64,000 bases of DNA from Colwellia polaris. Its GTDB lineage: Bacteria > Pseudomonadota > Gammaproteobacteria > Enterobacterales > Alteromonadaceae. Made by a program: the position numbers and the translations under genes. The notes beneath the pieces were generated by a model that was not told where the DNA came from, did no database searches, and saw nothing but the letters and a program-made list of their open reading frames with translations. The stretch spans positions 372,001 to 436,000 of the forward strand of contig NZ_NBOE01000002.1 of NCBI RefSeq assembly GCF_002104515.1. The letters are read 5' to 3'. Of the stretch, positions 2,493-29,952 are shown piece by piece (positions within the stretch are counted from its first letter, which is position 1; each line of letters opens with the position of its first letter).

Positions 2493-2633
2493 ATGCCTTA
2501 TTCCAAATTACTCGCCCCGATCAACAACTTTCTGAAAGTACCTACACCAGCCTCGTGGCTTGAAGAAGCTAAAGCTGAAAAAAACTTACCTGTGCTTTTA
2601 ATTGATCATCTTATTTGTGAACAAACATGTTGA
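2493..2633 (+). pseudogene. miaE: miaE 5' fragment (host copy split by the mobile element)
   Basis: The first 43 codons (MPYSKLLAPINNFLK... to DHLICE) match the start of a tRNA-(ms2io6A)-hydroxylase. Then the reading frame crosses into element DNA and stops at TGA (2631-2633) after three foreign codons. The rest of the gene lies 26.7 kb away, from 29,298. Joining ...CTTATTTGTGA to GCTAAAGGCC restores an open frame. The fragment holds only the first likely iron-ligand glutamate and cannot be active alone. It keeps the host promoter, which now points into the recombinase gene 54 bases downstream. Confidence 0.92.
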
Positions 2634-2640
2634 GTACACA
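2602..2640 (+). other. attL of the serine-recombinase element
   Basis: Host miaE sequence CTTATTTGT, core GA (2619-2620), then the element arm ACAAACATGTTGAGTACACA. The 7 bases TTTGTGA are shared with attR at 29,291-29,297. The boundary is supported by the exact point where similarity to miaE stops. Confidence 0.85.
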
Positions 2641-2686
2641 TACGGCTTGATTTATAGTCAATAGTATAGTGGAAAAGGTATTCATC

Positions 2687-4369
2687 ATGAAGAAAAAGGC
2701 ATATCTGTATCAACGGTTTAGTAGTGATCAGCAAATTGGTAATAGTTCTATTTATAGGCAATCGTTCAAGCAACATCAGTGGCTTGAGGCACATCCTGAA
2801 TTTGAATGTGAAGGTGAATACGTAGATGAATCTAAATCAGCATCGAAAGGTGAACACCTTAAGCGTGGGGAGCTAGGAGATCTTGTAAGTGAAATAGAAC
2901 AAGGAAAGGTAGAGAAAGGCTCATATATTTTAGTTGAGGGTTTTTCTCGTCTTTCTCGTTTAGATACACCTGAAACTGAAGAGTTGCTCAGAAAGATTTG
3001 GAAAGCAGGCATAACAATTGTCACGGTTCAAAATGGTCAGGAATATCCACCCGATACTGAAAGTAATTTTGGATTGAGAATCCAGCTTTTGGTTGAAGTT
3101 AATGGTGCATATTTAGAATCAAAAATTAGGTCTGAGAGGATCAAAGGGAGTTATGACAGGAGAGAGAGCCAAGCAAAGGAAGGCAAAACAATAAAAATAA
3201 AAAAACCATTCTGGCTTGATGAGGATGGAAAACTTAATGATGGGAAATACATAATTAAAAATATTTTTAATTGGTATGTAAGAGAAGGGCTAGGACAGCA
3301 AAGGATCTATCAACGATTAAAAGAGCAATATCCTGACTATGAACCTTTCAAAAACCTTGCTCCATCGACAGTAATTAGATGGATTAAGAGTAAAAGTGCA
3401 ATCGGTTACTGGGTTCGCTTTGCAGGAATGGAAAATGAACGAGAATATAAAGTATTTGAAGCTGCGGTAGGGTTAAAGATATTTTATAAAGCTGCTTCAA
3501 TTAATATTCATCGACATTATAAAAATATTAAACCAGACTCCAATATGGCACTGCATGGATTACTAGAGTGTGGTCACTGTGGTGGGGGGATTACAGTTCA
3601 AAAGAGTTATCATAAAAATGGTATGCCACTTTTAAGATGTTCAAGACAAGCCCGATATGGAAAACAACATTGTGGTTTTAAATCTACTTATCCATATTCT
3701 ATTGCCTATTATTTGTATGAAAATATTGTATATAACGAAATGATAGGAATGCTATCAGAACAAAATTTACGGCCGATAGAAGAACAAGAACTAAATAAAA
3801 TTGAACATCAGCTTAGTTCAGCAGAAAAAAAATATAATAAGCTGAAAGATCGAATGTTAAATTTAGATGATGATAGTGATGACGATGCTATAACTGATTT
3901 AATGTCTGAGCTATCGACTAAGAGAAAACAGTTGAAAACTAGAAAAAATCAATTAGAAAAGAATCTAGATGACCGACCTCCCTATATAGATGATGACATC
4001 AGGGAGCTTGAAAAAAATCCTAAAGAACTAAATTTAAACTTTAATCAACTTCAGAAGAAAATAATCATTAAAGATAAAACTGTGTTTTTTGAAAGTGATA
4101 GCCGCTATGAAATTACTTATGACGGCTACTCGCAACGAGAAAAAGGATATCAGATAACAAGGAATTTTTTGATCATATCAAAGGATCTGTCAAATCCTGA
4201 AATTGTACATAAATATGCTGATCTATATGATGGTGAAGGTAGTCTTGAAAGTAATGATCCAGATGATCCCTATCAGCAATATATGCGAGAGCTTTCTGAA
4301 AAGCCACATGAAGAAGTTAAGATTACAGAGTTTTTAAAAACCACTGATATCTGCAAAAAAGTAAAATAA
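2687..4369 (+). CDS. Large serine recombinase (integrase of the element)
   Basis: This enzyme cuts attP and attB with 2-base overhangs through a catalytic serine and so integrates the element. The N-terminal resolvase domain shows YQRFSSDQQ, with Ser12 as the likely nucleophile and Arg10 beside it, followed by EGFSRLSRLD. A recombinase domain comes next. Then a zinc ribbon starts at LLECGHCGGG and has a second cysteine pair around LRCSRQARYGKQHCGF. A charged coiled-coil precedes the C-terminus. I chose the ATG at 2687 (560 residues) because an AAAGG ribosome site precedes it; a GTG at 2669 would add six residues. It sits beside attL and can be read from the truncated host miaE promoter. Confidence 0.93.
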   Translation: MKKKAYLYQRFSSDQQIGNSSIYRQSFKQHQWLEAHPEFECEGEYVDESKSASKGEHLKRGELGDLVSEIEQGKVEKGSYILVEGFSRLSRLDTPETEELLRKIWKAGITIVTVQNGQEYPPDTESNFGLRIQLLVEVNGAYLESKIRSERIKGSYDRRESQAKEGKTIKIKKPFWLDEDGKLNDGKYIIKNIFNWYVREGLGQQRIYQRLKEQYPDYEPFKNLAPSTVIRWIKSKSAIGYWVRFAGMENEREYKVFEAAVGLKIFYKAASINIHRHYKNIKPDSNMALHGLLECGHCGGGITVQKSYHKNGMPLLRCSRQARYGKQHCGFKSTYPYSIAYYLYENIVYNEMIGMLSEQNLRPIEEQELNKIEHQLSSAEKKYNKLKDRMLNLDDDSDDDAITDLMSELSTKRKQLKTRKNQLEKNLDDRPPYIDDDIRELEKNPKELNLNFNQLQKKIIIKDKTVFFESDSRYEITYDGYSQREKGYQITRNFLIISKDLSNPEIVHKYADLYDGEGSLESNDPDDPYQQYMRELSEKPHEEVKITEFLKTTDICKKVK

Positions 4370-4381
4370 TTGACTCTTTTT

Positions 4382-4406
4382 AACGGAGTGAATTAACTCC
4401 GTTTTT
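4382..4406 (+). terminator. Terminator of the recombinase gene
   Basis: The stem AACGGAGT/ACTCCGTT has a 6-base loop and a T-run. A near-identical stem closes the small-gene cluster at 12,364, suggesting these modules share an origin. Confidence 0.85.
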
Positions 4407-4631
4407 CCTTAATATGATTAAAATCCACATAGTTATAATATTCGGTTATTTATCAGAGAAGGAAATGAAAAACGTGCTGGATGTTCTGCTGTATTATTTG
4501 GTTGGTCAAGATAATTAAGTGTTACTTCAAATCACAAAAAAATTTTGTAATTGACTGTAACTTTTCGGTGCTCATTTTATTGTTTCTAAGTTAATTAATC
4601 TTAAGATATCTCAACTTTTCAGTCTCCTGAA

Positions 4632-4755: not shown

Positions 4756-5856
4756 ATGAGAAAGAATTTTGTAGCAGTTAGAGCCGCGTATTACAAACAC
4801 GATAAATTAACTAAACAAGTTAAATCAAAACATATTGTCGAGCAATCACAAGATGACGGCTCAATAAGATCAGTTATTAAAACCAAAGTTACAGACAAAT
4901 CTTATAAATCTGCCATTGCTGAGTTTGAGCATGTACTGAGGACTGGAAGCACTAACTCAATTAATGTCGTTGATAAATATTCAAATGATAATGTCATGGT
5001 TTCACCTGATGAAACATGCTCTCCTCTTGACGCTTATTATAAGCACCTTGAACGATATAAAAAAACTGTAGGGCGCAAATGTCGCAACGATATGAACACA
5101 TTAATGGAGCATATTGTAGTGCTCTCTGAAGAGCATACGGCAAAGCTTGAAGATAAACTGGGTAAAGAAAGAGCTAAAAGAGAAATAGTTAAATGTCTCA
5201 AGACATACTCAAAAATGTATGCAGAGAGTTTTAAATTTACTGAATGTGGTTTTGCTTTGCATTTAGATGAGGGGTTTACTGATAGCGATGGAAACTTTAA
5301 ACGAAATATCCATGCTCATGTGATGTTTTTTAATTACGACTTCGATTCAAAAAAATCATATCTTAGAACGCTTTTTAAAAAAGGCGATTGTAATGTCACA
5401 GGGAAAACCAACGAACTAAATTCCAATTTTGTTGCAATACAAGACTTAGCCCATGAATGCTTTAAACGCCTTAAATATTCGCGTGGTCGATCCAAGCTAT
5501 TAACGATGTCGAAGTACTTACCTAAGCATCAATTTCTGGAAAGAAAGCTTCAAGCATCATTTACTAAATACAAAAAACTAACACGGCAACTTAACCAAAA
5601 GAAAAATGAGTTAAGTGAATACTTAGAAAAATGGTTTAGGAAAATTTTAGATCAAGAATCAGCGAAAACTGAAGCAAGTATTAGTGCTGAAATAGTACTA
5701 GATATTGATAATGCTCAAATTCTGAAAAGTACAGAAGAAGCAATAGGAAAACTAGAACAGGAAGTTCAAGGCAAGACAAAAATTACCCAAATTGGTGATG
5801 AGGAATTGATCACTAATCATATAAAACAAAAAATAAACTCAAGGAAGAAAAAATGA
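4756..5856 (+). CDS. MobV/Pre-like relaxase
   Basis: A relaxase nicks one strand at oriT and carries it into the recipient cell. Near residue 170 the sequence ALHLDEG..., then about 13 residues on NIHAHVMFFNYDF, fits the HUH arrangement of Pre/Mob enzymes (HxDE followed by a His-x-His metal site, here HAH). The later part is lysine- and glutamate-rich and likely coiled-coil (residues 250-360). The 366-residue length fits small mobilization relaxases. The ATG at 4756 follows GGATTTCAAGG. The stop overlaps the next gene by 4 bases (ATGA), so the two are translationally coupled. Confidence 0.75.
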   Translation: MRKNFVAVRAAYYKHDKLTKQVKSKHIVEQSQDDGSIRSVIKTKVTDKSYKSAIAEFEHVLRTGSTNSINVVDKYSNDNVMVSPDETCSPLDAYYKHLERYKKTVGRKCRNDMNTLMEHIVVLSEEHTAKLEDKLGKERAKREIVKCLKTYSKMYAESFKFTECGFALHLDEGFTDSDGNFKRNIHAHVMFFNYDFDSKKSYLRTLFKKGDCNVTGKTNELNSNFVAIQDLAHECFKRLKYSRGRSKLLTMSKYLPKHQFLERKLQASFTKYKKLTRQLNQKKNELSEYLEKWFRKILDQESAKTEASISAEIVLDIDNAQILKSTEEAIGKLEQEVQGKTKITQIGDEELITNHIKQKINSRKKK

Positions 5857-6907: not shown

Positions 6908-7897
6908 ATGGCAAAGAAGAAAAAGTTTACGGTGAGAATGTTTCAAGACGCTGAAACAACACTGGTAACAGATTTATTAAACAGAACAAGTGTTTTTAGC
7001 TGCTACGATAACAAAATTATTAAAAAAGCGCGTGATGCAGAGCAATACTCTTTCGGAGAATATACATACACAATTAAGCATCGTTACTTAGACATGAATG
7101 ATTATTTACTTTATGTCTATATCTTGAAAAAGTGGCTTTTAGTAAATGAGAAAGCGCCAGAATATGTTAATCAGATTGATGTACCATTTGCTGAAGTAGC
7201 GAACCTGTTTGGTATGACAGAAGCGTATATTAAAAAAGACAAGAAAAAGGCAGCAAAGCGTTTTCACGACTCAATAGATAGACTTACAGATGTAAAAGTG
7301 AATTTGCATGACGAGCAAAAAAAGTTAACCACGTTTTATCATCTCTTGTCAGATGGTAGCCAACTTCAAGAAGTAGCAGAAAATATTGTGGCTATTATTC
7401 CTGATTTTATTTTGCTTGAGTTCAGGAAAGAGCGGTACTCGTTTGTAAATTTGGACTGGATGAGTGTGTTAAAAACACAACGTGCTCAAGCGTTAATGCG
7501 CTTTTTAAGTAGTCATAGCTCACGCTTTAACACACATTCCTTAGAATTTTTAAAATCATTGCTTAATTTAAATGGCTCAGATGCAGCAGCAGATAAAGAG
7601 GTTAGAAAATCTTATAAAGAGTTAGTTACAGTTGGTTTTCTAAAAGAGTTTAAAATTAATACCAAAAAGAAGGATGGTAGCAAACGAAAGGTGGGTAAAC
7701 TGAGCTACTCGTCAACACAGGAACACAAAGTTTCTTGGTTCAAGTCTGAAATGGTCAATAAATTCAAAGATAAAAAAAATAAAGTCTTTAAAAATGATAG
7801 CTTCATGGTAGTTAAAGATGATACTGGAATTAACTATATTCACTATGGGAATCGTGTGTTTGGTGAGCCTTATGATGGCTCTGATCTACCTTTTTAG
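6908..7897 (+). CDS. Plasmid-type replication initiator, TrfA-like
   Basis: Such proteins bind origin repeats and load the host replisome. The N-terminus reads LLNRTSVF..., followed by SFGEYTYTIKHRYLDMNDYLLYVYI, which resembles the pattern of TrfA-type initiators (NRSALF, then an I-Y-G-x-L-x-x-D-x-x-V segment). The remaining 329 residues have winged-helix character and a basic stretch around residues 250-290 (KEFKINTKKKDGSKRK). It has its own control region with repeats upstream. Its presence means the element may replicate after excision or during transfer. Family assignment is by motif memory, hence moderate. Confidence 0.68.
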   Translation: MAKKKKFTVRMFQDAETTLVTDLLNRTSVFSCYDNKIIKKARDAEQYSFGEYTYTIKHRYLDMNDYLLYVYILKKWLLVNEKAPEYVNQIDVPFAEVANLFGMTEAYIKKDKKKAAKRFHDSIDRLTDVKVNLHDEQKKLTTFYHLLSDGSQLQEVAENIVAIIPDFILLEFRKERYSFVNLDWMSVLKTQRAQALMRFLSSHSSRFNTHSLEFLKSLLNLNGSDAAADKEVRKSYKELVTVGFLKEFKINTKKKDGSKRKVGKLSYSSTQEHKVSWFKSEMVNKFKDKKNKVFKNDSFMVVKDDTGINYIHYGNRVFGEPYDGSDLPF

Positions 7898-8023: not shown

Positions 8024-9508
8024 ATGGAGCATCAAAAAAGTAAGACAAACAAAAAGACAAAATACACTAAGAAGCAGAATGTTGTCTTAAACCAAGTTCT
8101 TGATATTTATAAATCATATCTAGATAAATTTAAATCAGGTCAAAAAGTTGCGTTTGAAGTACCTTGGCAAAAGAAACAGGTACTGGGAGTACCACGAAAT
8201 GCCAATACAGGACGACCATATCAAGCAACAAATGCTCAACTTTTATCATTGATTCAAGAAACAAAAGGCTTAGATTTACCTTATTTCCTTAACGAATCGG
8301 ATTTAAAAGAGCTTGGTATTATTGATATTATGCCTGATTTTCCAATAGCAATTGGAAAAAAACTGGTTGAGCGTTATCTAGATAAAAGCCGAAATGATGG
8401 TGATAAGCTTAAATGGATTTCTACAAAGAAATTCAAGTCATTGACGTATAAAGAGCAAGAAAACTACGAGCTTAAAAAAGCGGTAAGGCACTTCCCACTA
8501 TACCACCATAGTCAATTTGAAGACTCTCTTAAAAACGTAGATCTCTACCAAAAATGGATAGCTAGATATAATGAAACAAGCCTACTTGCAAAGCTAATGG
8601 ATTGTAAAACCGATGAAGAACGACAAAAGCTTTTTGAACCTAACATATTAGCAGCAAAAAACTATTTGGATGCAGTGCGTACTGAGAAAGGAATTGCATT
8701 AAAAGAACATGCGACTCAATGTTATTACGTACCAGCAAAAGATGAAATTGCTATGGTCAATATAGACCAATTTACTGGAGAAAATGCATTGCTCGCTTAC
8801 GTTGGTGTTTATGCTCATGAATTGTCGCATGCCACAGGACATAAAAGTCGTTTAAACCGTAAGTTAGTGGGTAATATGGACTCAAAGCAATATGGTTTTG
8901 AAGAGCTTGTCGCAGAGTCATCCAGTCTTCAATTAATGAAGCAATTTAATCTTCCGTCAGTACTAGATGAACAAAGTGCAGTATACATTCACTCATGGCT
9001 TAAGACACAACATAATAAAGGTAATAAAGATTTTTTAAGTATCGCTTGTAAGAAAGGAAGTGAGGCATGCCAATATATTGATCAGCAATACGACTCGTTT
9101 AAGCAGAGTGTTGAAAATAATTTTGATATTACCAATGCCATTCGCACACTCAAGTTTTTGCCTGAAAACGCGCCTGTATCATTAGAACTTTCCTATAATG
9201 CTGTATTAATTAAAAACAAAGCAAATGAGTTGTTTACTTCATTCACCGATCAAACTGGTGATGCAGGTACACTAGATTTTTGGTTAGAGTTTGATCACTT
9301 TATGAAACAAGAAGTCGGTTATGCAAAAGCAGATATTGAACAGGTTGTTGAACGAGTTAAAACACAATTGCTGCCAGAACATTTATCCATTAATTTATTT
9401 GATATTAGCTCTCAAAAATTACAGGTGAAACAGGAGTCGAATACCCCTGAAACCTCAGTCGAAAACTTGAAAAGTAATCCAAACAAGAAACGAAAAAACT
9501 CAATATAG
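8024..9508 (+). CDS. ArdC-like anti-restriction / ssDNA-binding protein with zincin motif
   Basis: ArdC proteins enter with transferred plasmid DNA and protect it from restriction. They join an N-terminal ssDNA-binding domain to a metallopeptidase-like domain. Here residues 20-130 carry the DUF1738-like segment (KVAFEVPWQKK, then GRPYQATNAQLL). The zinc motif HELSHATGH follows around residue 266, with a downstream glutamate in FEELVAES as a plausible third ligand. The C-terminal 120 residues are unassigned. The 494-residue length exceeds the usual 300 or so, so this resembles the longer TraC-like fusions. It stands in the transfer half of the element. Confidence 0.8.
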   Translation: MEHQKSKTNKKTKYTKKQNVVLNQVLDIYKSYLDKFKSGQKVAFEVPWQKKQVLGVPRNANTGRPYQATNAQLLSLIQETKGLDLPYFLNESDLKELGIIDIMPDFPIAIGKKLVERYLDKSRNDGDKLKWISTKKFKSLTYKEQENYELKKAVRHFPLYHHSQFEDSLKNVDLYQKWIARYNETSLLAKLMDCKTDEERQKLFEPNILAAKNYLDAVRTEKGIALKEHATQCYYVPAKDEIAMVNIDQFTGENALLAYVGVYAHELSHATGHKSRLNRKLVGNMDSKQYGFEELVAESSSLQLMKQFNLPSVLDEQSAVYIHSWLKTQHNKGNKDFLSIACKKGSEACQYIDQQYDSFKQSVENNFDITNAIRTLKFLPENAPVSLELSYNAVLIKNKANELFTSFTDQTGDAGTLDFWLEFDHFMKQEVGYAKADIEQVVERVKTQLLPEHLSINLFDISSQKLQVKQESNTPETSVENLKSNPNKKRKNSI

Positions 9509-12510: not shown

Positions 12511-13431
12511 ATGAGTAATATTTCAGAGAAGCATAAAAACAGTAAAGAAGTTGAAAAGTTAACTTTTGCACAAAAGCAAAGGTTGTCTTTTATTGATTTT
12601 AGTTTGCTGTTTAAAGGCTCTATTAACCGAAAAGAGTTAACTGAAAAATTTGAAATGGGTATGGCAAATGCCACTAGAGATCTTGCTCTATATAGAGAAT
12701 TAGTGCCTGAGAATATTGATTTTGATGCCAAAGATAGAAGCTATTTGCAGTCTAAAACGTTTTCTCCTCTGTTTAATTACAATTCAAAACAAACATTAAC
12801 CAAATTAGCGAATAAAATATCTGATGGTTTTGATGGTGTTTTAGAAATAGCTTTTCCAGTAGATGCGCCACATCAATTGAATGTGCCAGACATTTTTATT
12901 GTTGCCAAAATAGTACAGGCTATTTTGAAAGGTAAAGCTATTTCAATAATTTATACATCATTATCGTCTGGATCAAAGGCGAGAGAAATCGTTCCGCATA
13001 CAATCGTTGATAATGGATTACGGTGGCATGTTAGAGGTTTTGATAGAAAGTCAGGTTCATTCAGAGACTTTGTAATTACTCGCATATCTAAAGTAACTAT
13101 TAAAGATACCGAAGTTGAATCATTTGAAGAAGAAATAAATGATCACCAGTGGGTGCGAATGATGGATCTTTCGATAGTGCCACACCCTAATAACGTTCAG
13201 TATCCTCAAGCCATCATGATGGATTACGGTATGGAAAATGGTGTTCTTGAACTAAAAGTTCGTGCTGCGTTAGTTGGTTATTTGTTAAGACGTTGGAATA
13301 TTGATTGTTCAAAAGATGCAGAGTTACAAGGTGGTGAGTATCAATTGTGGTTAAGAAATAGAATCACACTGTATGGTGCTGAAAACTTAATACTTGCACC
13401 AGGCTTCGATGAAAAAGACTTAGAACATTAG
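12511..13431 (+). CDS. WYL-domain transcriptional regulator (BrxR/CapW type)
   Basis: Regulators of this type repress defence operons and are thought to release them when a ligand, probably a nucleic acid or nucleotide, binds the WYL domain. Residues 20-80 form a winged helix (INRKELTEKFEMGMANATRDL). Residues 140-210 form the WYL domain (KAISIIYTSLSSG, then VPHTIVDNGLRWHVRGFD). The last 80 residues match the WCX dimer region (LRRWNIDCSK, then ENLILAPGFD). The length of 306 is normal. It is first in the operon, behind a promoter with a perfect palindromic operator, and only 35 bases before the helicase gene. Confidence 0.88.
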   Translation: MSNISEKHKNSKEVEKLTFAQKQRLSFIDFSLLFKGSINRKELTEKFEMGMANATRDLALYRELVPENIDFDAKDRSYLQSKTFSPLFNYNSKQTLTKLANKISDGFDGVLEIAFPVDAPHQLNVPDIFIVAKIVQAILKGKAISIIYTSLSSGSKAREIVPHTIVDNGLRWHVRGFDRKSGSFRDFVITRISKVTIKDTEVESFEEEINDHQWVRMMDLSIVPHPNNVQYPQAIMMDYGMENGVLELKVRAALVGYLLRRWNIDCSKDAELQGGEYQLWLRNRITLYGAENLILAPGFDEKDLEH

Positions 13432-16794: not shown

Positions 16795-16796
16795 AC

Positions 16797-19918: not shown

Positions 19919-21826
19919 ATGATGACAGAACAAGTAGAGAAGTTAACACCTGAAGATGGAAAAAGCTTAGATATAGAAGCACAAAATATTGAACAATTAA
20001 AGCAACTATTTCCTGATGTATTTCGAGAGGGAAAAGTTGACTTTGAAGTGCTGAAAGCCGTTTTAGGCGAGCATATTGAAGATGCAGATGAACGTTATAA
20101 CTTTACTTGGCATGGAAAGAATAAAGCAAGACAATTAGCGCAAACACCTTCAACAGGTACATTACGCCCGTGTAAAGAAGAGAGCGTAAATTGGGATACA
20201 ACCCAAAACCTTTTCATTGAAGGAGATAATCTTGAAGTACTTAAATTACTCCAGAAGTCTTACAACAAAAAAGTGAAAATGATCTATATCGATCCTCCTT
20301 ATAACACAGGTAAAGACTTTGTTTATAAGGACGACTTTCAGAATAATTTGGCCAATTATAAAGAAATTACATCGCAGGTTGACAAAGATGGCTTCAATAA
20401 ATCAAATAATCCTGAAACGTCAGGAAAATATCATACAGATTGGTTAAATATGATTTATCCACGTTTAAAGCTTGCTCGAAACTTATTAAAAGACGATGGA
20501 ATAATATTTATCTCTATAGATGACCACGAGGCAAAAAATTTAATTCAAGTATGTGATGAAGTGTTTGGTGTTGAGAATTTCATTGAGCAATTTATTTGGA
20601 AAAGCGGAAGAACATCATCTTCAGTTTATACAAGAGAGCATGAGTACATCATTGCTTATGCAAAGAATACAAATATTTTAAACCATATTAAATATTCTGG
20701 ACCAGACTCTAAAATTACAGATCGAGCAATCAAAAAAATAGGTGTTAAAAACCCTGCTTCAGAAATCAAATTCAAACAAGGTATTAGGTTTGAAGGTGAA
20801 GATAAGGTTTTTCCTAGTGTTTTTGGTGATAAAGAGGTCATTGAAATTACACAAGGTATTTTTGAATGTAAAGATGGTAAATTAGCTAATGATGTAACTG
20901 TAAAAGCTGGCTGGACGATGAAGAATCAAATTGAAAGCTGGCTTAGTGGTCAAGAAACATATGATACGAAAGGTCAAAAGGTAACGGAGTTCTTTTTTAA
21001 AACAAATGGTGTATTACAGTATGTCAAGGAGCGGGGAACAGAGCACCCTAAAACAATCATTAATGATTATACGACAAAGCAAGGTGGCATTGAGGTAGGA
21101 GCTATCCTTTCGGAAGGCGTATTTGATTACCCTAAACCAACAGGTTTAATTCAGTTTTTAATGAAAATAGTATCAGAAGATGAAATTGTAATGGATTTTT
21201 TTGCTGGCAGCGGCTCTACTGCCCATGCTGTATTAAAGCAAAACCAAGAAGACGAGAAGAATAGAAAATTTATTACTGTTCAACTGCCCGAACCAATCAA
21301 CTCGTCAGAAAAAGCTGCTCATTCATATTGTAAAGAGAAAGGATTATCACCAAAAATTTCATCTTTAACACAAAAACGCATTTTTGAAGTTTGTAAAACT
21401 TATCCTGATGCGGGATTTAAAAGCTTTAAGCTAGACACTAGTAATATTAAACCTTGGGATGCAACATTCGATACTGTTGAAGATATGGTTGATCAAAGTG
21501 TTGATAGTATTAAGGCCAAACGTTCCGAATATGATGTGCTATTTGAAATTTTATTGAAGTACGGTCTTGATTTAACCTATCCAATTTCTGAACATGATAT
21601 TAAAGGAAAACGAGTATTTGATGTTGCCTTTGGTTCGTTAATTGTCTGTTTAGATAATAAAATTACGAATGAAACGATTGTTGGCATTGGCGAACTTAAA
21701 AAAGAACTAGACTCTGAATCTACGCGTGTAGTTATTAAAGATGCTGGTTATGAAGATAGTTGTGAAAAGTTAAACGCCATTGAAACGCTTAAACAATATG
21801 GCATTACTGACGTTAAGTGCATTTAG
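19919..21826 (+). CDS. mod: Type III-like DNA adenine methyltransferase (Mod)
   Basis: Mod recognises the target site and methylates adenine, shielding host DNA and guiding Res. The beta-class order is visible: catalytic motif DPPYNTGKD near residue 125 first, and the AdoMet-binding FAGSGSTAHAV near 428 later. The variable target-recognition part lies between (residues 230-400). The 635-residue length is typical of Mod. The start is ATGATG after AGGAATGT. Eight bases separate its stop from res, which has a perfect AGGAGG site, as expected for a Mod-Res pair. Confidence 0.92.
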   Translation: MMTEQVEKLTPEDGKSLDIEAQNIEQLKQLFPDVFREGKVDFEVLKAVLGEHIEDADERYNFTWHGKNKARQLAQTPSTGTLRPCKEESVNWDTTQNLFIEGDNLEVLKLLQKSYNKKVKMIYIDPPYNTGKDFVYKDDFQNNLANYKEITSQVDKDGFNKSNNPETSGKYHTDWLNMIYPRLKLARNLLKDDGIIFISIDDHEAKNLIQVCDEVFGVENFIEQFIWKSGRTSSSVYTREHEYIIAYAKNTNILNHIKYSGPDSKITDRAIKKIGVKNPASEIKFKQGIRFEGEDKVFPSVFGDKEVIEITQGIFECKDGKLANDVTVKAGWTMKNQIESWLSGQETYDTKGQKVTEFFFKTNGVLQYVKERGTEHPKTIINDYTTKQGGIEVGAILSEGVFDYPKPTGLIQFLMKIVSEDEIVMDFFAGSGSTAHAVLKQNQEDEKNRKFITVQLPEPINSSEKAAHSYCKEKGLSPKISSLTQKRIFEVCKTYPDAGFKSFKLDTSNIKPWDATFDTVEDMVDQSVDSIKAKRSEYDVLFEILLKYGLDLTYPISEHDIKGKRVFDVAFGSLIVCLDNKITNETIVGIGELKKELDSESTRVVIKDAGYEDSCEKLNAIETLKQYGITDVKCI

Positions 21827-21834: not shown

Positions 21835-24800
21835 ATGAAAATTCAATTTCAATCTGACTTACAACATCAGTCAGAGGCTATATCGGCAGTAGTAAACCTT
21901 TTTGAAGGTCAGGAAGTCTGTAAAAGTGAATTTACAGTTGTGAACACCTACAAACAGGTTAAAGGCCAAATAGCACAACAAGGTAATTTATTTTCGACTT
22001 CTACGTTTTCAGACACAGGGGTTGGAAATCGACTATTTTTATTAAATGATGAAGTTTTAGATAACGTTAAAAAGGTTCAACTTAAAAACGGCTTAAAACA
22101 ATCAGATAAATTGTCTGATTTTGACTTCACCATAGAAATGGAAACGGGAACAGGTAAAACCTATGTTTACTTACGTTCTGCTTTTGAACTTAATAAAAAT
22201 TACGGTTTTACTAAGTTTGTTATAGTTGTTCCGTCTGTTGCTATACGTGAAGGTGTTGCTAAATCTCTTGATATAACTCAAGAGCACTTTAAAAAAATCT
22301 ATGGCATAGATGCCGATTGGTTTGTCTATAACTCCGCCAAACCTACCGCTGTTCGTGACTTTGCAACTAATGACAACCTTTCGATTATGGTTATTAATAT
22401 TGATGCATTTAAAGAAAAAACCACTAAAAAAGAAGGTGAAGCAGGTCAAGTAAGAATGCATACCCGTAGGAATGACCTAAATGATGCAAAACCTATTGAA
22501 TTAATTCAAGAAACCAACCCTATAGTTATCATTGACGAACCTCAATCTGTAGCAACTACAGACAAGTCAAAAGACGCAATTAAATCCTTAAACCCTCTTT
22601 GCACTTTGCGCTATTCAGCAACGCATATAGACAAACTCAATATGCTTTATAAGTTAGATTCTATTGACGCATACGAACAAAAGTTAGTTAAGCAAATTGA
22701 AGTCGCTAGTGTTGGTATTAAAAACGATCATAACCAAGCGTATATCAAGTTAGTTTCTGTGAAACCTCAGCCAAGGTCTGCATCAATTGAAGTGGATGTT
22801 ATGAGTAAAGGTAAAGTTACTAGAAAAAAAGTAACCATTACGCCAAACCAAGATCTTTTTGAAAAAACTAAGAACCCTGTTTATGAAGGGTATGATGTTC
22901 TTGATATTTATACTGAAGAAGGTGGTGAATACATTAACTTTCATTCTAAAAGTGATGTCATTTCTTTAGGACAAGCAATTGGTCAAGTTGATGAGCTTTT
23001 ACAGAAACGTATTCAAATAAGAAAAACGATTGAAGAGCACCTAGATAAAGAAATGCGTTTAACCTCTAAAGGTATAAAGGTATTGAGCTTATTCTTTATA
23101 GATAAAGTTTCTAACTATAGAATTTATGACAAAAATAATAACCGTTCTGCTGGTGTTTTCTGTACATATTTTGAAGAAGAGTTCAGAGATATATTAACTA
23201 AAAGTCCTAAGTATAAAAAAATATATCCTTCAATATATTTAGAAAATGGTCAAATTAATACTGTTGCTTTAGATGAGTTAATTGCTCAGGTTCATAACGG
23301 TTATTTCGCTGCTGATAAAAAGAAAAACTCTAATGGTGACTTGGTTGATGTATATAAAGAATCAACATCAACCCAAGGTGCTTCAGCAAAGTCAGCCGCT
23401 GATATTGATGCATATAAACTGATAATGACTGATAAAGAAAAGCTACTTGATTTGAAAGAACCTTTACGCTTTATTTTTTCACATTCTGCATTAAAAGAAG
23501 GTTGGGATAATCCAAACGTTTTCCAAATTTGTACTTTAAACGAAAGTGGCTCAACCATTAAAAAACGACAAGAAATTGGTCGCGGTTTACGCATCTGTGT
23601 TGATCAGAATGGGGAACGAGTACATGGTTTTGATGTTAATACGTTAACCGTTATGGCAAATGAATCTTATGATGAGTTTGTGTCTGGTTTGCAAAAAGAA
23701 ATTGAAGAAGAAGAAAATGTTCAATTTGGTATTGTTGAAGATCATTTGTTTGCCAATATTAATGTTGCTGAAGATGGTAAACCAACCGAATACTTAGGAA
23801 CCGAAAAGTCAGCGCAGCTATTTCAATATATACAAGAGCAAGGCTATATAACTGAAAAAGGTAAAGTTGAAGATAAATTAAAATCTGCAATACAGGATAA
23901 TAATTTACCATTACCAGAAGAATTTAAAGATGTTCAAAACGTTGTTTTTGACAAACTAAAACAGGTTGTTGGACGTAATTTAAAAATTAAGCCTGCTGAT
24001 AAAAAAGAACAAGTAAAACTTAATAAGGAAGTCTATTTAAGTAATGAATTTAAAGAACTTTGGGAAAGAATTAAGTACAAAACTAACTTTAAACTTAATT
24101 TTGATGAAGCAAAACTGATTGATGAATGTGCTGAAGAAATTAAAGATAATTTAGTTTGTGGCTTTTCTAAATTTGAATATAAGAAAGCTCTTACCGCCAT
24201 TGAACGTAGCGGCGTAAATATTACTGATGAAAAAATAGCATCTTACGTTTATGAATATCGTGATTTTCCACTACCTGATATCGTTTCTTATCTCCAAGAA
24301 GAGACTAATTTAACTAGACGAGCTGTTGTCGAAATCCTTCAAAAAAGTGGTAAATTAGACCACTTTAAAAAGAATCCTCAAAAGTTTATAGAGCAAGCTT
24401 GCGATATTATTATTAAGAAAAAACAGTTGTTTATTGTTAATGGTATTAAGTATGAAAAAATAGGTGATCATGCTTTCTTTGATCAAAAACTGTTTGAGAA
24501 TAACGAATTATTTGGTTACTTGAATAAAAATATGATTGAAGCCAAACGTTGTGTACATGATTACGTTGTTTATGACTCTGAAACGGAAGAGTTATTTGCT
24601 AAAGAGTTAGAAAAGCGTGATGAAGTTAAGCTATATGCAAAACTACCTAGCCGTTGGTTTAAGATAGATACACCTTTAGGTACTTATAACCCTGATTGGG
24701 CTGTACTCATTGAAAAGGATGGTTCTGAACACTTATATTTTGTTGTTGAAACCAAGAGTTCAATGCTCAGCTCTGATCTTAGAGAAGCTGAAAATAAGAA

Positions 24801-24897
24801 AATAAAGTGTGGTAAAGAGCACTTTAAAGCGATTGGGGATAATGCTGAATTCTTAAAAGCTAAAGATTATGACAGTTTTGCTAATCAAATAGTTTAA
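21835..24897 (+). CDS. res: Type III-like restriction subunit (Res): SF2 helicase plus PD-ExK nuclease
   Basis: Res hydrolyses ATP, communicates along DNA and cuts when unmodified sites meet. Walker A METGTGKTY is near residue 102 and the DExx box reads IIDEPQ near 233. Motif VI lies around EIGRGLRICVD near 580. The C-terminal nuclease shows NPDW (Asp954) then VVETK (Glu972-x-Lys974), a complete PD-(D/E)xK site. The length of 1020 is normal for Res. Nothing in the gene suggests decay. It follows mod by 8 bases. Confidence 0.92.
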   Translation: MKIQFQSDLQHQSEAISAVVNLFEGQEVCKSEFTVVNTYKQVKGQIAQQGNLFSTSTFSDTGVGNRLFLLNDEVLDNVKKVQLKNGLKQSDKLSDFDFTIEMETGTGKTYVYLRSAFELNKNYGFTKFVIVVPSVAIREGVAKSLDITQEHFKKIYGIDADWFVYNSAKPTAVRDFATNDNLSIMVINIDAFKEKTTKKEGEAGQVRMHTRRNDLNDAKPIELIQETNPIVIIDEPQSVATTDKSKDAIKSLNPLCTLRYSATHIDKLNMLYKLDSIDAYEQKLVKQIEVASVGIKNDHNQAYIKLVSVKPQPRSASIEVDVMSKGKVTRKKVTITPNQDLFEKTKNPVYEGYDVLDIYTEEGGEYINFHSKSDVISLGQAIGQVDELLQKRIQIRKTIEEHLDKEMRLTSKGIKVLSLFFIDKVSNYRIYDKNNNRSAGVFCTYFEEEFRDILTKSPKYKKIYPSIYLENGQINTVALDELIAQVHNGYFAADKKKNSNGDLVDVYKESTSTQGASAKSAADIDAYKLIMTDKEKLLDLKEPLRFIFSHSALKEGWDNPNVFQICTLNESGSTIKKRQEIGRGLRICVDQNGERVHGFDVNTLTVMANESYDEFVSGLQKEIEEEENVQFGIVEDHLFANINVAEDGKPTEYLGTEKSAQLFQYIQEQGYITEKGKVEDKLKSAIQDNNLPLPEEFKDVQNVVFDKLKQVVGRNLKIKPADKKEQVKLNKEVYLSNEFKELWERIKYKTNFKLNFDEAKLIDECAEEIKDNLVCGFSKFEYKKALTAIERSGVNITDEKIASYVYEYRDFPLPDIVSYLQEETNLTRRAVVEILQKSGKLDHFKKNPQKFIEQACDIIIKKKQLFIVNGIKYEKIGDHAFFDQKLFENNELFGYLNKNMIEAKRCVHDYVVYDSETEELFAKELEKRDEVKLYAKLPSRWFKIDTPLGTYNPDWAVLIEKDGSEHLYFVVETKSSMLSSDLREAENKKIKCGKEHFKAIGDNAEFLKAKDYDSFANQIV

Positions 24898-24907: not shown

Positions 24908-24934
24908 TACGACTGTAACTTGCTTACAGTCGTA
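24908..24934 (+). terminator. Perfect 11-bp hairpin after res
   Basis: TACGACTGTAA, loop CTTGC, TTACAGTCGTA. No clear T-run follows, so it may be an RNA-processing or stability hairpin, or a weak terminator that separates the restriction genes from the next two. Confidence 0.5.
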
Positions 24935-24970
24935 CATTACTTTACATTTCAAATAGATTGGAAGAAATTA

Positions 24971-26659
24971 ATGCAAACAGGGAAATCCACGATAAAAGAT
25001 ATTTTTGGTGACACCAGAATATTTAATATACCCGTCTACCAAAGGGCTTATTCTTGGGAAGTTGAAGAAAACTTAAAAGATTTTTTATCAGATATTGTTA
25101 ATCAACATGAAGATCGGAGTTACTTCTTAGGCTCATTTCTTTTTCATATAAATGGGAATAAAAACGAGTTTTCAATCGTTGATATTGTTGATGGGCAGCA
25201 AAGGCTCACAACCTTTATAATTTTTATAAATGCACTCATAGAAAAGTTAATTTCCAACTCATCTAGTTTGGTTTCCAGTAGAACAATTAGAAAATTCATC
25301 AAAGATGAAGAGTTCTATAAACTTCAAACAGATAATGAAGACTCTGTATTTTTGCATAGCGTTATATTGGATGATCAGAAAGTATCAATAATTGACATTA
25401 AAACTAATTCTCAAAGACTTTTGTTAGAAGCAAAAAATTACTTCAATACCGAATTAGATAAACTTGATATTGTAAATTTAGAGAAAATATATAACACAGC
25501 AACTAATGCAGATGTTTTGCTCTATGTCGTTGATCAAATCAATACGGCAACACAAATATTTGAATTGTTAAATGATAGGGGAAGAAAGCTAACTGATCTT
25601 GAATCAATTAAGAGCTTTTTGATGTATAACGCTGGATTAGTATCTCAAAACCCAGATCAAATCATCAGAAATATTCAACTCGAATTCGCTGAAATTTATA
25701 GACTAGCTGAAGAGTATGAGATTAGCGATAGGGACGTACTTCGTTATCATAATATTGCTTTTGAGAATTGTCCCGCAGATTTTCAAGAAAAGCCAAAAGA
25801 GTATATCAAACTAAAAATAGCCAAATTGGTTAATAACCCAGAAACTAAAAGTGAAGCGCTGAAAGAAATTAGATCTTATGCAACACGCCTTAAAAATAGT
25901 TTTAAAATTTACTCAAGTATTCAAGATGAAAAACAAATCAATCGTAATTTAGCGCAGTTATTCATGATTGGACGAGTTGCCCCTTTTTACCCTGTACTGA
26001 TGAAAATCTACAGAGACAAAAAAGAAGATTTAGATAGGTTATTGCAAGCGATAAACCAGTTTACGTTTAGGGCATCTTTGGTAGGGCTTCGTAGCAACGG
26101 TGAAAGTTACCTATATACACGACTAAGAAGAAATGAAGATGTAATAGGGCTTGTACAAGATTTTACTCAAAGTAATTGGTGGAATATAAATAGTAGAGCA
26201 TTAGAAGCAGTTCATTATGAAAACCATTATGAATGGTTAAGCAAAAACTCTGTACGTTATGTTTTGTTTTCTTATGAGAACAAATTGCGTCACGCTAAAG
26301 GTTTTCCTCAACTCACCTTGAAAGAGTATTTCACAACAAGAGAAAGGGAAAAACTGAGTATTGAGCATATATCAGCCCAAAGGGCTAAAAATGTTAAGTA
26401 TGATGATGAGTTTCATGAGTCCTACAAGCATAATATCGGAAACTTAGTCATTGATTATGCCGCTTCTAATTCAAGCAAAGGAAATAAGAATACAGCAGAT
26501 AAGTTAGAAGCCTTTAAATTAGCGCCTTTGATGTCACAAAATGAAATAGATGGTGTCCCTTGTGATTGGGGGAATGTAGAAAGCATAAAAAGCTACATAA
26601 AACAGCGTGAAGAGATGATGAAAGATTTTGTCTTAACCCACTTTCAGTTATCCATCTAA
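24971..26659 (+). CDS. DUF262-DUF1524 protein (GmrSD/SspE/BrxU-like)
   Basis: Proteins of this architecture use an N-terminal nucleotide-hydrolysing DUF262 domain and a C-terminal HNH-like nuclease, and several restrict modified phage DNA. Here DUF262 shows IPVYQRAYSW near residue 18 and VDGQQRLTT near 73. The DUF1524 part shows IEHISAQ near 464, then IGNLVIDYAASNSSKGNK, keeping the key His and Asn positions although the usual HIxP is HISA. ATG 24,971 with GGAAG upstream (562 residues) is preferred over an earlier TTG. It follows a hairpin, so it may be a second transcription unit of the cargo. Confidence 0.85.
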   Translation: MQTGKSTIKDIFGDTRIFNIPVYQRAYSWEVEENLKDFLSDIVNQHEDRSYFLGSFLFHINGNKNEFSIVDIVDGQQRLTTFIIFINALIEKLISNSSSLVSSRTIRKFIKDEEFYKLQTDNEDSVFLHSVILDDQKVSIIDIKTNSQRLLLEAKNYFNTELDKLDIVNLEKIYNTATNADVLLYVVDQINTATQIFELLNDRGRKLTDLESIKSFLMYNAGLVSQNPDQIIRNIQLEFAEIYRLAEEYEISDRDVLRYHNIAFENCPADFQEKPKEYIKLKIAKLVNNPETKSEALKEIRSYATRLKNSFKIYSSIQDEKQINRNLAQLFMIGRVAPFYPVLMKIYRDKKEDLDRLLQAINQFTFRASLVGLRSNGESYLYTRLRRNEDVIGLVQDFTQSNWWNINSRALEAVHYENHYEWLSKNSVRYVLFSYENKLRHAKGFPQLTLKEYFTTREREKLSIEHISAQRAKNVKYDDEFHESYKHNIGNLVIDYAASNSSKGNKNTADKLEAFKLAPLMSQNEIDGVPCDWGNVESIKSYIKQREEMMKDFVLTHFQLSI

Positions 26660-26684: not shown

Positions 26685-28349
26685 ATGAAAATTCCAATTG
26701 GGATAGATAAAGACACCTCTGAGCTAATCTTAATCGAAGATTTAACTGAGGAACAAAGGGGGTTAAAGAGCAACTGTATATGCCCTGAGTGTAAATCTGA
26801 ACTTGTGGCACGAATGGGGGACAAGACTGTCTGGCATTTTGCTCACTATAGAGGAAATGAAAGTGAGTCGTGCCAAGAAACAGCTCTTCATTTGTTAGGA
26901 AAGTATGTCTTATCAAAGCTTAAAACAATCCCTCTTATTGACTTTGATAACCAAACCTATTCGCGTAAAGACATATTAGGTAGAAGTTACAGTACAGAAA
27001 ATAAATCATTATTCGGTAAAAAAAAGATTGAACTCAAAAGCGCAGAAGTAGAAAAAACAATCGGTACAGTTAGGTCTGATGTTTTTGTTTCTGCGGTTTA
27101 TGAAGGTGTTGATCTTGATATTAATTTTGAAATAAAGGTTTGGCATAAAGTAGATGATGCCAAAGAAGATAAGCTTAAGGTACTTGAGCTAAATACGGTT
27201 GAAATTGATATCTCGAATTTACTCCAAGAGAGGGATATAGGTTTTAAAGAAGTAAAACAAGAACTTGAACAAGCCTATAATCAAAAAATTATTAACTTAA
27301 CAAACCAATTCATTAATCATGTAAATCGGCACCTTACAGAGCAACTAGATCGGAAGGTTGACTGTATTAATAATGGGTTAAGACAATGGATTAATCTAGT
27401 AGAGCGGTACTTTTTACAAAGTGGCTTTAAACTACCTTGCTATGAATTCATCTTTCAAAAAATACCAACAAACAAGTTTGGTGAAATAATAAAATCTAAG
27501 CTTCCTAGCCCTCCTCAATTAGATAAACGGATTAGAGTCAAAGGCTTTCAGCATACCAAGGGTATGAACTTTGAATTGGTTGCTCAATCAGGAAGTGAGC
27601 TAAAGCCTATTGGTGTTTTAATTGATGAACAATTTGATAATGTGACTGACACTGAGAATTTGACGAATACCCCAAATTTATTGGTATTTGATATTGAAAG
27701 CTTGAATCAACCGCCAGAGCTTATTAGAGCCAAATGGGGTAAAAACAAAATTGCTTTAGACTATATAGAAAAGTGTAATGGCATTATCGAAGGAGAATTA
27801 GCTAAGAGAAAGCAATTTGAACAGAAGCGGTTAGATCAAAGTTTAGAGCGTGCTGAAGTATTAATATCGACTTCTGAAAAGGTTATTAGTCAGGACTACG
27901 ATAAAATTAAAAATTTATCTGTGAGATACTTTAAAGATCTAGTCAATAAAGGCTTTGAACAAGAATATTTAAATTTGCTTATTTGGGAAGATATAGATCC
28001 TAACTGGATTTATGGTTGCCAACCTAAACTATGGCAGATGATATTGATTAGGGATATTTGTTGGGTTAACAATGATGGTGTTGAAGTTGGTTTTTCAGCT
28101 AAAAGGCTAGGACAACTAGGCGTAGATCTAGTAAGTCCATATAAGGACTTAATGTACAAGTCAAAACTTCTAAAAGCCAAAGGAATTGAAATGCCATTTG
28201 TTACTCCTTACAAAATGCTAATGGCTTATTTTGAATACTTAAAAATGCATGGTTTTTTATCTGGTGGTTTTGGTGCTAGGTACAAAAAGCAGCATATATA
28301 TGGTGATAGTTTTAAAAAATTCAATACACATCAACGTGCGATAACTTGA
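26685..28349 (+). CDS. CoiA-like nuclease with zinc head
   Basis: The zinc head has C33-P-E-C36, HFAH at 51-54 and C63, with the same 14-residue gap between C and H as the protein at 9,620. A PD-(D/E)xK-like site follows: TVRSDVFV with Asp132, then FEIKVWHKVDDAK with Glu149 and Lys151. This matches the nuclease part of CoiA-type proteins. The remaining 350 residues include a coiled region (residues 365-400) and an unassigned end. It lies 25 bases after the DUF262 gene and probably shares its transcript. Competence CoiA acts on incoming DNA; here a defence role is more likely from context. Confidence 0.7.
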   Translation: MKIPIGIDKDTSELILIEDLTEEQRGLKSNCICPECKSELVARMGDKTVWHFAHYRGNESESCQETALHLLGKYVLSKLKTIPLIDFDNQTYSRKDILGRSYSTENKSLFGKKKIELKSAEVEKTIGTVRSDVFVSAVYEGVDLDINFEIKVWHKVDDAKEDKLKVLELNTVEIDISNLLQERDIGFKEVKQELEQAYNQKIINLTNQFINHVNRHLTEQLDRKVDCINNGLRQWINLVERYFLQSGFKLPCYEFIFQKIPTNKFGEIIKSKLPSPPQLDKRIRVKGFQHTKGMNFELVAQSGSELKPIGVLIDEQFDNVTDTENLTNTPNLLVFDIESLNQPPELIRAKWGKNKIALDYIEKCNGIIEGELAKRKQFEQKRLDQSLERAEVLISTSEKVISQDYDKIKNLSVRYFKDLVNKGFEQEYLNLLIWEDIDPNWIYGCQPKLWQMILIRDICWVNNDGVEVGFSAKRLGQLGVDLVSPYKDLMYKSKLLKAKGIEMPFVTPYKMLMAYFEYLKMHGFLSGGFGARYKKQHIYGDSFKKFNTHQRAIT

Positions 28350-28432
28350 TAGTTTAATCTATAACAACATCCCTTTTATTCTATATATGGTAAAATCTCT
28401 TTTATTTAGTTTGAATATCGAGATTCAGCAAC

Positions 28433-29197
28433 GTGCCGTATACAGAATTATTAGCCCCTATTAGATCTTTTTTACAATGCGAGACCCCTGACGAATGGGT
28501 TATAGAAGCTAAAAAGGCTGAAAACTTGCCAGTTCTTCTCTTGGACCATTTGATATGTGAATTGAAAGCTGGACAAACAGCGATGTGGTTAATTCGTAAA
28601 TATGCTGCTGATAAAAAAAGTGGTGAAGCACTGCTTGAGTGGTTTCAACCTTATGAGAAATTTGTTTATAAAAAAGAGGGTTCTTTAGAGTCTTTGGCAG
28701 AGCATTACAAATTAACAAAGGATATTGTTCCTAAGAGTGATTCTGACTTCGGACAGGATTTGATAGATAAGATGGTGCTTCTTATTAAAGAAGAGTTACA
28801 CCATTTTTACCAAGTTCTAGAAATCATGGTTACACGAGGTATACCTTACGATAATATTACTGCTAGTCGTTATGCTAAAGGCATGATGAAGCATGTGAGG
28901 ACTCATGAGCCAGCAATTTTAATTGATAAGTTAATTTGCGGTGCTTATATCGAAGCTCGTTCTTGTGAACGATTTGCAAAATTAGCCCCACATTTAGATG
29001 ATGAACTTAATAAGTTCTACGTTTCTTTACTGCGTTCAGAGGCAAGGCATTATCAAGATTACTTGGCACTAGCTGAACAAGTCGCTGGCGAAGATATTTC
29101 CGAAAGAATCAAGTTCTTTGGTGAAGTGGAAGCTGAGTTGATCTCTACTCCTGACACTGATTTTAAATTCCACAGTGGTATACCTAATAAAGATTGA
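28433..29197 (+). CDS. miaE: tRNA-(ms2io6A)-hydroxylase carried by the element (replacement copy)
   Basis: MiaE is a non-haem di-iron monooxygenase that hydroxylates ms2i6A37 in tRNAs reading UNN codons. Full length is 254 residues, beginning MPYTELLAPIRSFLQ (GTG start). Likely iron ligands are Glu43 (HLICE), the pair EELH at 120-123, a later Glu in IEARSCERF and the pair EARH in LLRSEARHYQDY. It is clearly homologous to the split host gene but has diverged throughout, so it is not a recent duplication. It sits just inside attR and keeps MiaE activity available after integration. An AT-rich promoter region of about 80 bases precedes it. Confidence 0.93.
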   Translation: MPYTELLAPIRSFLQCETPDEWVIEAKKAENLPVLLLDHLICELKAGQTAMWLIRKYAADKKSGEALLEWFQPYEKFVYKKEGSLESLAEHYKLTKDIVPKSDSDFGQDLIDKMVLLIKEELHHFYQVLEIMVTRGIPYDNITASRYAKGMMKHVRTHEPAILIDKLICGAYIEARSCERFAKLAPHLDDELNKFYVSLLRSEARHYQDYLALAEQVAGEDISERIKFFGEVEAELISTPDTDFKFHSGIPNKD

Positions 29198-29242
29198 AAT
29201 TAACTTAGAAATTTTATTTAGAAATATAGGTTAAACGAATTG

Positions 29243-29260
29243 AGGTTCTATGAAGAACCT
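29243..29260 (+). terminator. Weak hairpin after element miaE
   Basis: AGGTTC-TATGAA-GAACCT, followed by a second small stem CTGCT/AGCAG (29,259-29,273). No long T-run follows, so termination would be leaky; in the circular form it lies just before attP and the recombinase. Confidence 0.35.
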
Positions 29261-29274
29261 GCTTTAATAGCAGT

Positions 29275-29952
29275 TTGCACACTCAATATGTTTGTGAGCT
29301 AAAGGCCGCACAATCAGCGATGTTCATGATCCGAAAATATGCAGTTGATAAAGCGGGTAGTGATGCATTGTTAGCGTGGTTACAACCTTTTGAAGCCTTT
29401 ATATATAAACGAGAAGGCGACTGGCGGTTATTAGCGGCGAAAAATAAACTGACTAAATCAGTCGTGCCGAAATCTAGCTCGCCCTATGGACAAAATTTAA
29501 TTGATAAAATGGTATTGTTGATTAAAGAAGAGCTTCATCATTTTTATCAAGTACTAGAAGTCATGGATGAATATGGTGTTGAGTATCGAAGTATTACGCC
29601 TTGTCGTTATGCAAAAGGGATGTTAACACATGTTAAAACCTTCGAACCTGATGCGCTAATAGACAAGTTGATTGTCGGTGCTTTTATCGAAGCAAGATCA
29701 TGCGAACGATTTGCAATGCTAGCACCCCATTTAGATAAACGCTTAGGTGACTTTTATTTATCATTATTAAGGTCTGAAGCTCGTCATTATCAAGATTATT
29801 TAACCTTGGCGAAAGAAATTGCAGGTCCAGATCAAAGTGACAAAGTAGAGAGCCGCGTTGCTTATTTTGCAGATATTGAGGCCAGCTTAATTACAAGTGA
29901 AGACTCAGACTTTAAATTCCACAGCGGCGTGCCTAAAATTGCTATGAACTAA
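29275..29952 (+). pseudogene. miaE: miaE 3' fragment (host copy split by the mobile element)
   Basis: From LKAAQSAMFMIRKY to the end this is the rest of the host hydroxylase. It keeps the di-iron motifs EELHHF, IEARSCERF and SEARHYQDY. By chance the element end supplies a TTG and six codons in frame, restoring the first ligand glutamate (VCELK), so the open frame covers 225 residues. It has no ribosome site before the TTG and lacks the first 42 or so residues, so expression is unlikely. It is the partner of the fragment at 2493-2633. Confidence 0.88.
29276..29312 (+). other. attR of the element
   Basis: Element arm TTTGCACACTCAATATG, shared TTTGTGA (29,291-29,297, core GA 29,296-29,297), then host miaE sequence GCTAAAGGCCGCACA. 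Together with attL it defines the exact insertion point. Confidence 0.85.

Follow-up and report, generated by a model that had tools for sequence, protein, structure and literature searches.

Large Serine Recombinase Elements Split miaE at One Codon and Carry a Complete, Diverged Copy of the Gene

Results and Discussion

In a 64,000-nt stretch of the Colwellia polaris genome (assembly GCF_002104515.1, contig NZ_NBOE01000002.1, positions 372,001 to 436,000; below, the window), the tRNA hydroxylase gene miaE is interrupted by an element of 26,677 bp (2621-29297), whose first gene encodes a large serine recombinase (LSR) and whose last gene is a complete miaE. Similar arrangements are found in several genera, with the break at the same codon. 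We propose, with a probability of roughly 0.84, that the LSR element splits miaE at a fixed attachment site (attB) and supplies the complete, diverged miaE in cis, compensating for the loss. Coordinates in the window are given in Table 1; genomes are designated by G numbers and the stretches read from them by L numbers.

The Split Gene and the Empty Site

The host miaE is interrupted after codon 43, both junctions share the 7-bp sequence TTTGTGA, and the two halves, joined by script, form a single open frame of 260 aa. The cut and its coordinates had been given in a preliminary description made from the sequence of the window, as had a full, diverged miaE just inside the right junction, and both are borne out. 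The product of the latter gene is aligned with the split host MiaE over the full length with 164 of 254 residues identical (64.6%). Its score with the equivalog model for MiaE, NF047790, is 446.6 bits, over the cut-off of 320. Four MiaE-family matches are present in the window genome: the carried copy, the two halves, and a short paralogue elsewhere (190 aa, L003:1498-2070, genome contig C3; 78 bits against NF047790, far under the cut-off), the carried copy being the only complete long-type MiaE. The short paralogue might back up MiaE. Comparable short MiaE-family proteins are seen in the other members of the genus that have matches.

An unsplit miaE at this locus, which the preliminary description had proposed to look for in relatives, is found in G228 from the same genus, as one intact gene 87.5% identical over 257 aa and with the same neighbors as in the window (a Yip1-domain gene and a small open reading frame (ORF) upstream, a DUF885 gene downstream). 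Of 17 same-genus genomes, the window genome included, 16 have MiaE matches and 12 have exactly one long-type and one short match; one long-type miaE is present in all 12 same-genus genomes without a listed stub. In the family as a whole, 389 of the 395 genomes searched contain a match to MiaE-family proteins. Given the identical break point in other genomes and the intact miaE of G228, the split is not a matter of chance, and its recurrence across many assemblies disfavors an assembly error as its cause.

Attachment Sites and the Proposed Mechanism

Twenty-six of 28 miaE 5' ends break directly after codon 43, the other two being contig ends. On the element side of the junctions stand arms such as AAATGTAAATATGTGCA, and the opposite end has their reverse complement. 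In all nine elements measured (G100 was left out), the arms of the reconstructed attP are inverted repeats, matching at 12-20 of 24 positions compared to shuffle means of approximately 9-11 (p <= 0.0055 in seven elements, 0.034 in G018 and G328). The shared cores include the GA of the Glu43 codon, at which the comparison was anchored. The window element combines the features of LSR elements, that is, Resolvase, Recombinase and zinc-ribbon domains, a short core, and symmetrical attP arms.

We suggest the following course of events. The LSR would recombine two sites: a palindromic attP, in which two inverted arms flank a short core, and a fixed attB within miaE, formed by the codons for Leu-Ile-Cys-Glu43. 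The crossover would presumably fall on the GA of the Glu43 codon or immediately beside it. The resident miaE would be knocked out upon integration, and the complete diverged miaE of the element would keep the tRNA A37 hydroxylase in the cell; the cost of a landing site in a conserved gene would be cancelled, and the cell would then depend on the copy of the element. Deletion of the recombinase would fix the swap and leave the old halves to decay, and the next element would split the carried copy, producing layered stubs.

Recurrence in Other Genomes

A search with the recombinase gave matches in 44 of the 395 family genomes, from which 30 loci were kept; at 12 of these, including the window, a piece of miaE adjoins the recombinase. 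Moreover, scanning a genome collection with an 11-row recombinase alignment yielded 73 stretches with its peptide patterns, ten of which encode a relative, and in all ten cases a split miaE adjoins it, although, as the alignment was built of miaE-site recombinases and the peptide patterns were required, relatives at other sites may escape such a scan. The ten cases come from Colwellia chukchiensis, Rheinheimera baltica, a Rheinheimera metagenome-assembled genome, three Pseudoalteromonas, two Alteromonas, Vibrio mediterranei, and Shewanella colwelliana. In V. mediterranei, neither purF nor the Yip1-domain gene is found within 10 kb, hence the recombinase tracks miaE and not its neighborhood. 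At E <= 1e-40, 394 genomes of the order gave 19 matches and 369 genomes of the class gave two; the four strong ones were all already known (the window, G068, G100, G018), and at the 16 weaker loci (15 and 1, respectively) there is no miaE within 1.5 kb.

Altogether, 15 LSR-split miaE loci were examined, from Colwellia, Rheinheimera, Pseudoalteromonas, Alteromonas, Vibrio, Shewanella, and others, and a complete open miaE is present in 13 of them; a search for other elements with a terminal miaE had been proposed in the preliminary description. The copy lies at the far end, as in the window, in G068; directly after the recombinase in G285, G348, G392, G342, G318, G100, and Pseudoalteromonas MMG007; and mid-element in G011, G328, and V. 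mediterranei, while G018 has an inverted layout. The 3' half of the split gene was located in ten of these 13 loci; it was not found within approximately 55 kb in C. chukchiensis, and the stretches read from V. mediterranei and MMG007 were limited to 10 kb. The remaining two loci are G260, where a truncated recombinase adjoins the 3' half and a complete miaE is on a separate small contig, and S. colwelliana, with no complete miaE in the 10 kb fetched and the recombinase matching as two overlapping pieces. In G260 (L072), the 3' half and the truncated recombinase stand beside the Yip1-domain gene in inverted orientation, which suggests a local inversion at the miaE hotspot.

In six elements (G285, G348, G392, G342, G318, G100), the start of the longest miaE frame falls in the span from 13 bp before to 9 bp after the final nucleotide of the LSR gene, and such abutting or overlapping frames make it probable that the recombinase and miaE are co-expressed.

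In the recombinase tree (33 rows), 12 of the 13 miaE recombinases, including that of the window, form one clade (support 100/100), and the G328 recombinase is placed outside it, the resolution around G328 being weak. At least two recombinase lineages appear to reach the same miaE codon.

The plasmid collection gave 19 records for the recombinase, none of them close (identity below 60% in every case and coverage below 80%), and scanning IMG/VR with the recombinase alignment gave no match. MiaE itself is found in eight plasmid records, seven of 550 kb to 5.4 Mb and one 164-kb Legionella plasmid (38% identity), and in four records of the phage collection, which was queried with MiaE only: two Salmonella records of 501 kb (62-63%) and two Acinetobacter phage records of 174-175 kb (42%).

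Origin and Constraint of the Carried Copies

A MiaE tree of host and element proteins, which the preliminary description had called for, was built for the part after the break (72 rows). The 3' half from the window falls among natives of the genus (with G163, 100/86; with G228, 99/90), and the carried copy pairs with a sequence of G388 from another genus (100/95); judging by this placement, it is foreign in origin. Carried copies in general are scattered over many places of the tree, forcing at least eight changes of the label. In a test for mosaic genes with a native C-terminal and a foreign N-terminal part, G348 and G328 were odd compared to native pairs, and the other nine of 11 were not.

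The motifs EELHH, EARSCERF, and SEARH, which we take to be the iron-site motifs, are retained in all 13 carried copies. Where dS was estimable, in five pairs of complete copies from elements or beside stubs, the ratio of nonsynonymous to synonymous substitution rates (dN/dS), computed over the part after codon 43, is 0.02-0.06, some pairs having dS near saturation. The preliminary description had spoken of a destroyed gene and a working substitute: the split and the complete copy are seen directly, and the open frames, motifs, and low dN/dS point to a substitute that would work, its expression and activity being presumed.

Valine at codon 41, beside the core, occurs in nine of the 13 carried copies and in three of 35 native rows, the count ignoring relatedness. 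This substitution might lower re-targeting of the element's own copy. The stronger idea that carried copies are recoded and hence immune was rejected, since the presence of two 5' stubs at some loci points to carried copies being open to a second strike.

Layered Stubs

Nineteen genomes, most of them picked for extra MiaE matches, were rescanned. Four of them (G101, G169, G040, G306) have two 5' stubs and one complete miaE each, with no recombinase of the miaE-targeting family in the stretches fetched, and single 5' stubs are present in G284, G198, and G056. In these seven genomes, in which no recombinase was detected, the element-end motif stands beside all 11 stubs, once with a single mismatch, and the stubs are cut at the same codon. 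They are probable fossils of successive replacements, and the simplest reading of the two-stub loci, including the order of the layers, would be that a copy brought in by one element was subsequently cut by a following one.

One case allows for comparison of the two copies after the replacement. An old insertion is common to G198 and G240 (87% identity over 7.2 kb), and no recombinase was found in it. The ends of the native miaE are decayed in G198 and undetected by tblastn in G240, and the carried miaE is intact with dN/dS 0.036. Such constraint on the carried copy alongside decay of the native pieces is seen in G198/G240 only.

Other Target Genes

As a control, 20 LSR loci away from miaE (approximately 20 kb each, one of 12.7 kb) were searched for gene pieces adjoining the recombinase that have a homologue elsewhere in the region; the same screen is positive at 13 of 13 miaE loci. 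The split-and-replace design was observed in three of the 20 control loci, with tag as the target in G222 and G502, and yjbR in G413. In G222, tag is split near codon 168, its 5' part is decayed by a stop, and a complete tag lies just inside the far end, with a short 3' stub approximately 25 bp further. The tag 3' stubs are short and weak matches (best E-values 0.015 and 0.004) at the expected place. One more control locus, nth in G114 (L182:2638-14860), has a complete nth and an old 3' half beside the recombinase; here nth looks restored by a new 3' half, that is, by half-gene restoration. The genes adjoining the complete nth are presumably rnf-like.

These cases raise a broader proposal, that split-and-replace is a general, repeatedly evolved strategy of LSR elements, by which miaE, tag, and yjbR are overwritten in layers and the host becomes dependent. 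We hold it tentatively, at somewhat less than an even chance.

Contrary Evidence and Alternative Explanations

Several observations weigh against compensation as the reason for retention of the carried gene. Equally low dN/dS (0.022-0.049) is obtained for the split 3' halves, whether these are paired among themselves or with natives; as they are as constrained as the carried copies, most insertions appear recent and the low ratios mainly reflect earlier history, so that selection after the replacement would be read from G198/G240 only. The Pseudoalteromonas carried copies are near native ones in the C-terminal part, and some of them may have been recently picked up or converted. A crude promoter scan just upstream of the window's carried miaE gave no good match (two matches near the gene, compared to a shuffle mean of 5.2). 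According to the available part of one report, E. coli lacks this hydroxylation (PMC7680852). Given this and the short paralogue in the genus, miaE may be dispensable. Finally, not every split gene comes with a replacement: in G087, yjbR is split by a serine-recombinase element of approximately 7 kb without a copy (L195-L196, 17260-24628 of the joined stretch), and in G309, an Mg-chelatase-family gene, presumably comM-like, is split by an LSR element (L177, 1329-1979 and 9781-10668), with no other copy of it in the 12.7 kb read. A substitute is hence not obligatory for LSR elements. In total, three of 21 LSR loci off miaE (the 20 screened and G087) have the split-and-replace design, although elements exceeding the fetched stretch could conceal copies.

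Among the alternatives, the one that fares best, while still unlikely, is an exchange of alleles, in which the carried MiaE is beneficial in itself, e.g., as a better enzyme, and splitting of the native gene removes a competitor, as suggested for recA islands. The strong divergence of the carried MiaE in the window is compatible with it, and for recA, Rapa et al., in the part of their paper available, propose that splitting avoids interference between two proteins; however, the carried copies come from many lineages, which fits the need for any working miaE better than one favored allele.

It is more improbable still that miaE is a passenger with no selected role, captured by imprecise excision or by homologous recombination with earlier hosts. 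Such capture would agree with the several origins of carried copies in the tree, with at least eight forced label changes, and with the closeness of some copies to local natives in the C-terminal part, and the low dN/dS may be largely pre-insertion. Yet a complete open copy is kept in 13 of 15 LSR-split loci with its motifs conserved, the LSR gene and miaE abut in six elements, the carried gene is the very gene that is split, at tag and yjbR as well, and the G198/G240 copy is constrained while the native pieces in G198 have decayed.

A further alternative, that miaE was duplicated in tandem long ago and an unrelated insertion later struck one of the copies, might be imagined from the adjoining complete and split copies in the window and had been named in the preliminary description, but it is refuted by the empty sites and the tree: same-genus genomes without a listed stub have a single long-type miaE, and the carried gene of the window is enclosed by the two att arms and has a foreign place in the tree, where carried copies are scattered.

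Relation to Known Systems

The kind of strategy proposed here, splitting of a gene with its replacement in cis, is known already from Vibrio recA islands. In V. cholerae S24, the recA mobile element (RME) splits recA and carries a divergent recA (PMC4405046), and the same split-plus-copy strategy is described for an island of V. parahaemolyticus 090-96 (PMC4334540). In the available passages, these islands resemble the miaE elements in a size of approximately 30 kb, insertion at a single position within a conserved gene, short terminal inverted repeats, and a complete gene copy inside, 23-24% divergent in the recA islands; in the V. cholerae island, the integrase and the gene copy are at the two ends. 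The miaE elements share with RME-type islands the one site in a conserved gene, the divergent complete copy, and the terminal inverted repeats. They differ in targeting a tRNA-modification gene and, in the window, in having an LSR in place of a "phage integrase"; the recA islands are described from few strains, and the passages available mention neither layered stubs nor coupling of the gene with the recombinase. The "phage integrase" is reportedly of the tyrosine type. The preliminary description considered full replacement of an RNA-modification enzyme from the middle of its gene less usual; the recA islands are a precedent for the strategy, and the serine-recombinase version at miaE did not turn up in the papers searched.

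In the case of SGI1, the trmE gene end is restored upon insertion. SGI1 variants enter the 3' end of trmE, and SGI1 and dusA islands, as far as the available text describes them, are similar to the miaE elements in landing in a conserved tRNA-modification gene (PMC8409611), while the latter cut at codon 43 and replace the gene whole. Integrative mobilizable elements with serine integrases are also alike, having one LSR, very short att sites, and intragenic insertion; they disrupt genes dispensable for the host, such as rumA, and a substitute copy is not mentioned in the part available (PMC5704250). Diverse LSRs are known to converge on one conserved coding site, e.g., prolyl isomerase (Durrant et al., 2022, PMC10083194), similar to the convergence on miaE, with substitute genes in the elements not mentioned in the available portion of that catalogue. 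In the open-licence PMC literature, we found no paper linking miaE with an integrase and a genomic island, or with a serine recombinase, and no serine-recombinase family repeatedly replacing miaE layer by layer. What the present data appear to add is a family of serine-recombinase elements by which miaE is split at one codon and replaced layer upon layer, related cases occurring at tag and yjbR.

An element of this type may land in a widely retained gene and yet not deprive the host of it. This provides a route for horizontal swapping of housekeeping genes in place, which confounds gene trees, and the layered stubs are a record of successive invasions. If the general reading is true, the host comes to depend on the element as the sole supplier of the gene; synthetic "cleave-and-rescue" drives are the counterpart of such a gene-destroying sole supplier. 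Moreover, more than ten diverged recombinases have one coding target, and their att sites are possible orthogonal integration tools.

Genes of the Elements

Table 1. Features of the window element and its junctions, with elements at other target genes.
Feature	Position	Strand	Remarks
Host miaE 5' stub, codons 1-43	2493..2620	+	Same half within the intact gene of G228
attL shared core TTTGTGA	2614..2620		Left junction
Left element arm	2621..2642		Inverted repeat of the right arm, 18/24 positions; 0/2000 shuffles as good
Large serine recombinase, 566 aa	2669..4369	+	Resolvase, Recombinase, Zn_ribbon_recom; first gene inside the left junction
Putative relaxase	4756..5856	+	Homologue of an Alteromonas flava element protein matching Mob_Pre (G011 region, E 1e-19)
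Replication-protein-like ORF	6908..7897	+	phrog_775
ArdC-type antirestriction protein	8024..9508	+	ArdcN, MPTase-PolyVal
WYL-domain regulator	12511..13431	+	
SNF2-type helicase, defence cargo	13467..16721	+	PADLOC C3a139, "HKD+Snf2"; 61% identical gene in the Rheinheimera baltica element
DUF4391 protein, cargo	16797..17648	+	
Candidate defence protein PDC-S46	17659..19851	+	PADLOC
Type III restriction-modification methyltransferase	19919..21826	+	
Type III restriction enzyme	21835..24897	+	
GmrSD-type protein	24920..26659	+	GmrSD_N, GmrSD_C
CoiA_N-domain protein, cargo	26685..28349	+	
Complete replacement miaE, 254 aa	28433..29197	+	GTG start
Right element arm	29270..29290		Inverted repeat of the left arm
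attR shared core TTTGTGA	29291..29297		Right junction
Host miaE 3' part, codon 43 to stop	29298..29952	+	Clusters with genus natives in the tree
tag elements (two loci)	L173:2457-9089; L188	L188 reverse	
yjbR element (one locus)	L186:2833-17384		

Scanning the putative relaxase of the window against Pfam gave no family above the cut-off, and its product is homologous to those of G392, G348, G318, and G011. Of eight candidate relaxases scanned, four (G100, G342, G011, V. mediterranei) match Mob_Pre above the cut-off, and the relaxase search gave no match for the candidate ORFs of G392, G348, G068, and G318. We take Mob_Pre to be MobV-type. We regard the window element as integrative and probably mobilizable.

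Five adjoining genes of the window element (13467-24897) have homologues, 28-61% identical and in another order, in the R. baltica element (L064:6983-18323), and the SNF2/HKD helicase, the DUF4391 protein, PDC-S46, and the type III methyltransferase and restriction enzyme possibly constitute one composite defence system. Restriction or other defence-type genes are present in the window element, G348, G342, G068, G011, G318, and V. mediterranei, and the G392 element carries an RND (ACR_tran) efflux gene. By these contents, the miaE elements would resemble mobilizable defence islands. The V. mediterranei element also encodes a DRT3-type reverse-transcriptase defence protein (L125:11785-13806).

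Outside the window element, the miaE 3' half is separated from the DUF885 gene (32744-34621) by a TonB-dependent receptor gene (30131-32338); in the six relatives read, the DUF885 gene follows within approximately 500 bp after miaE.

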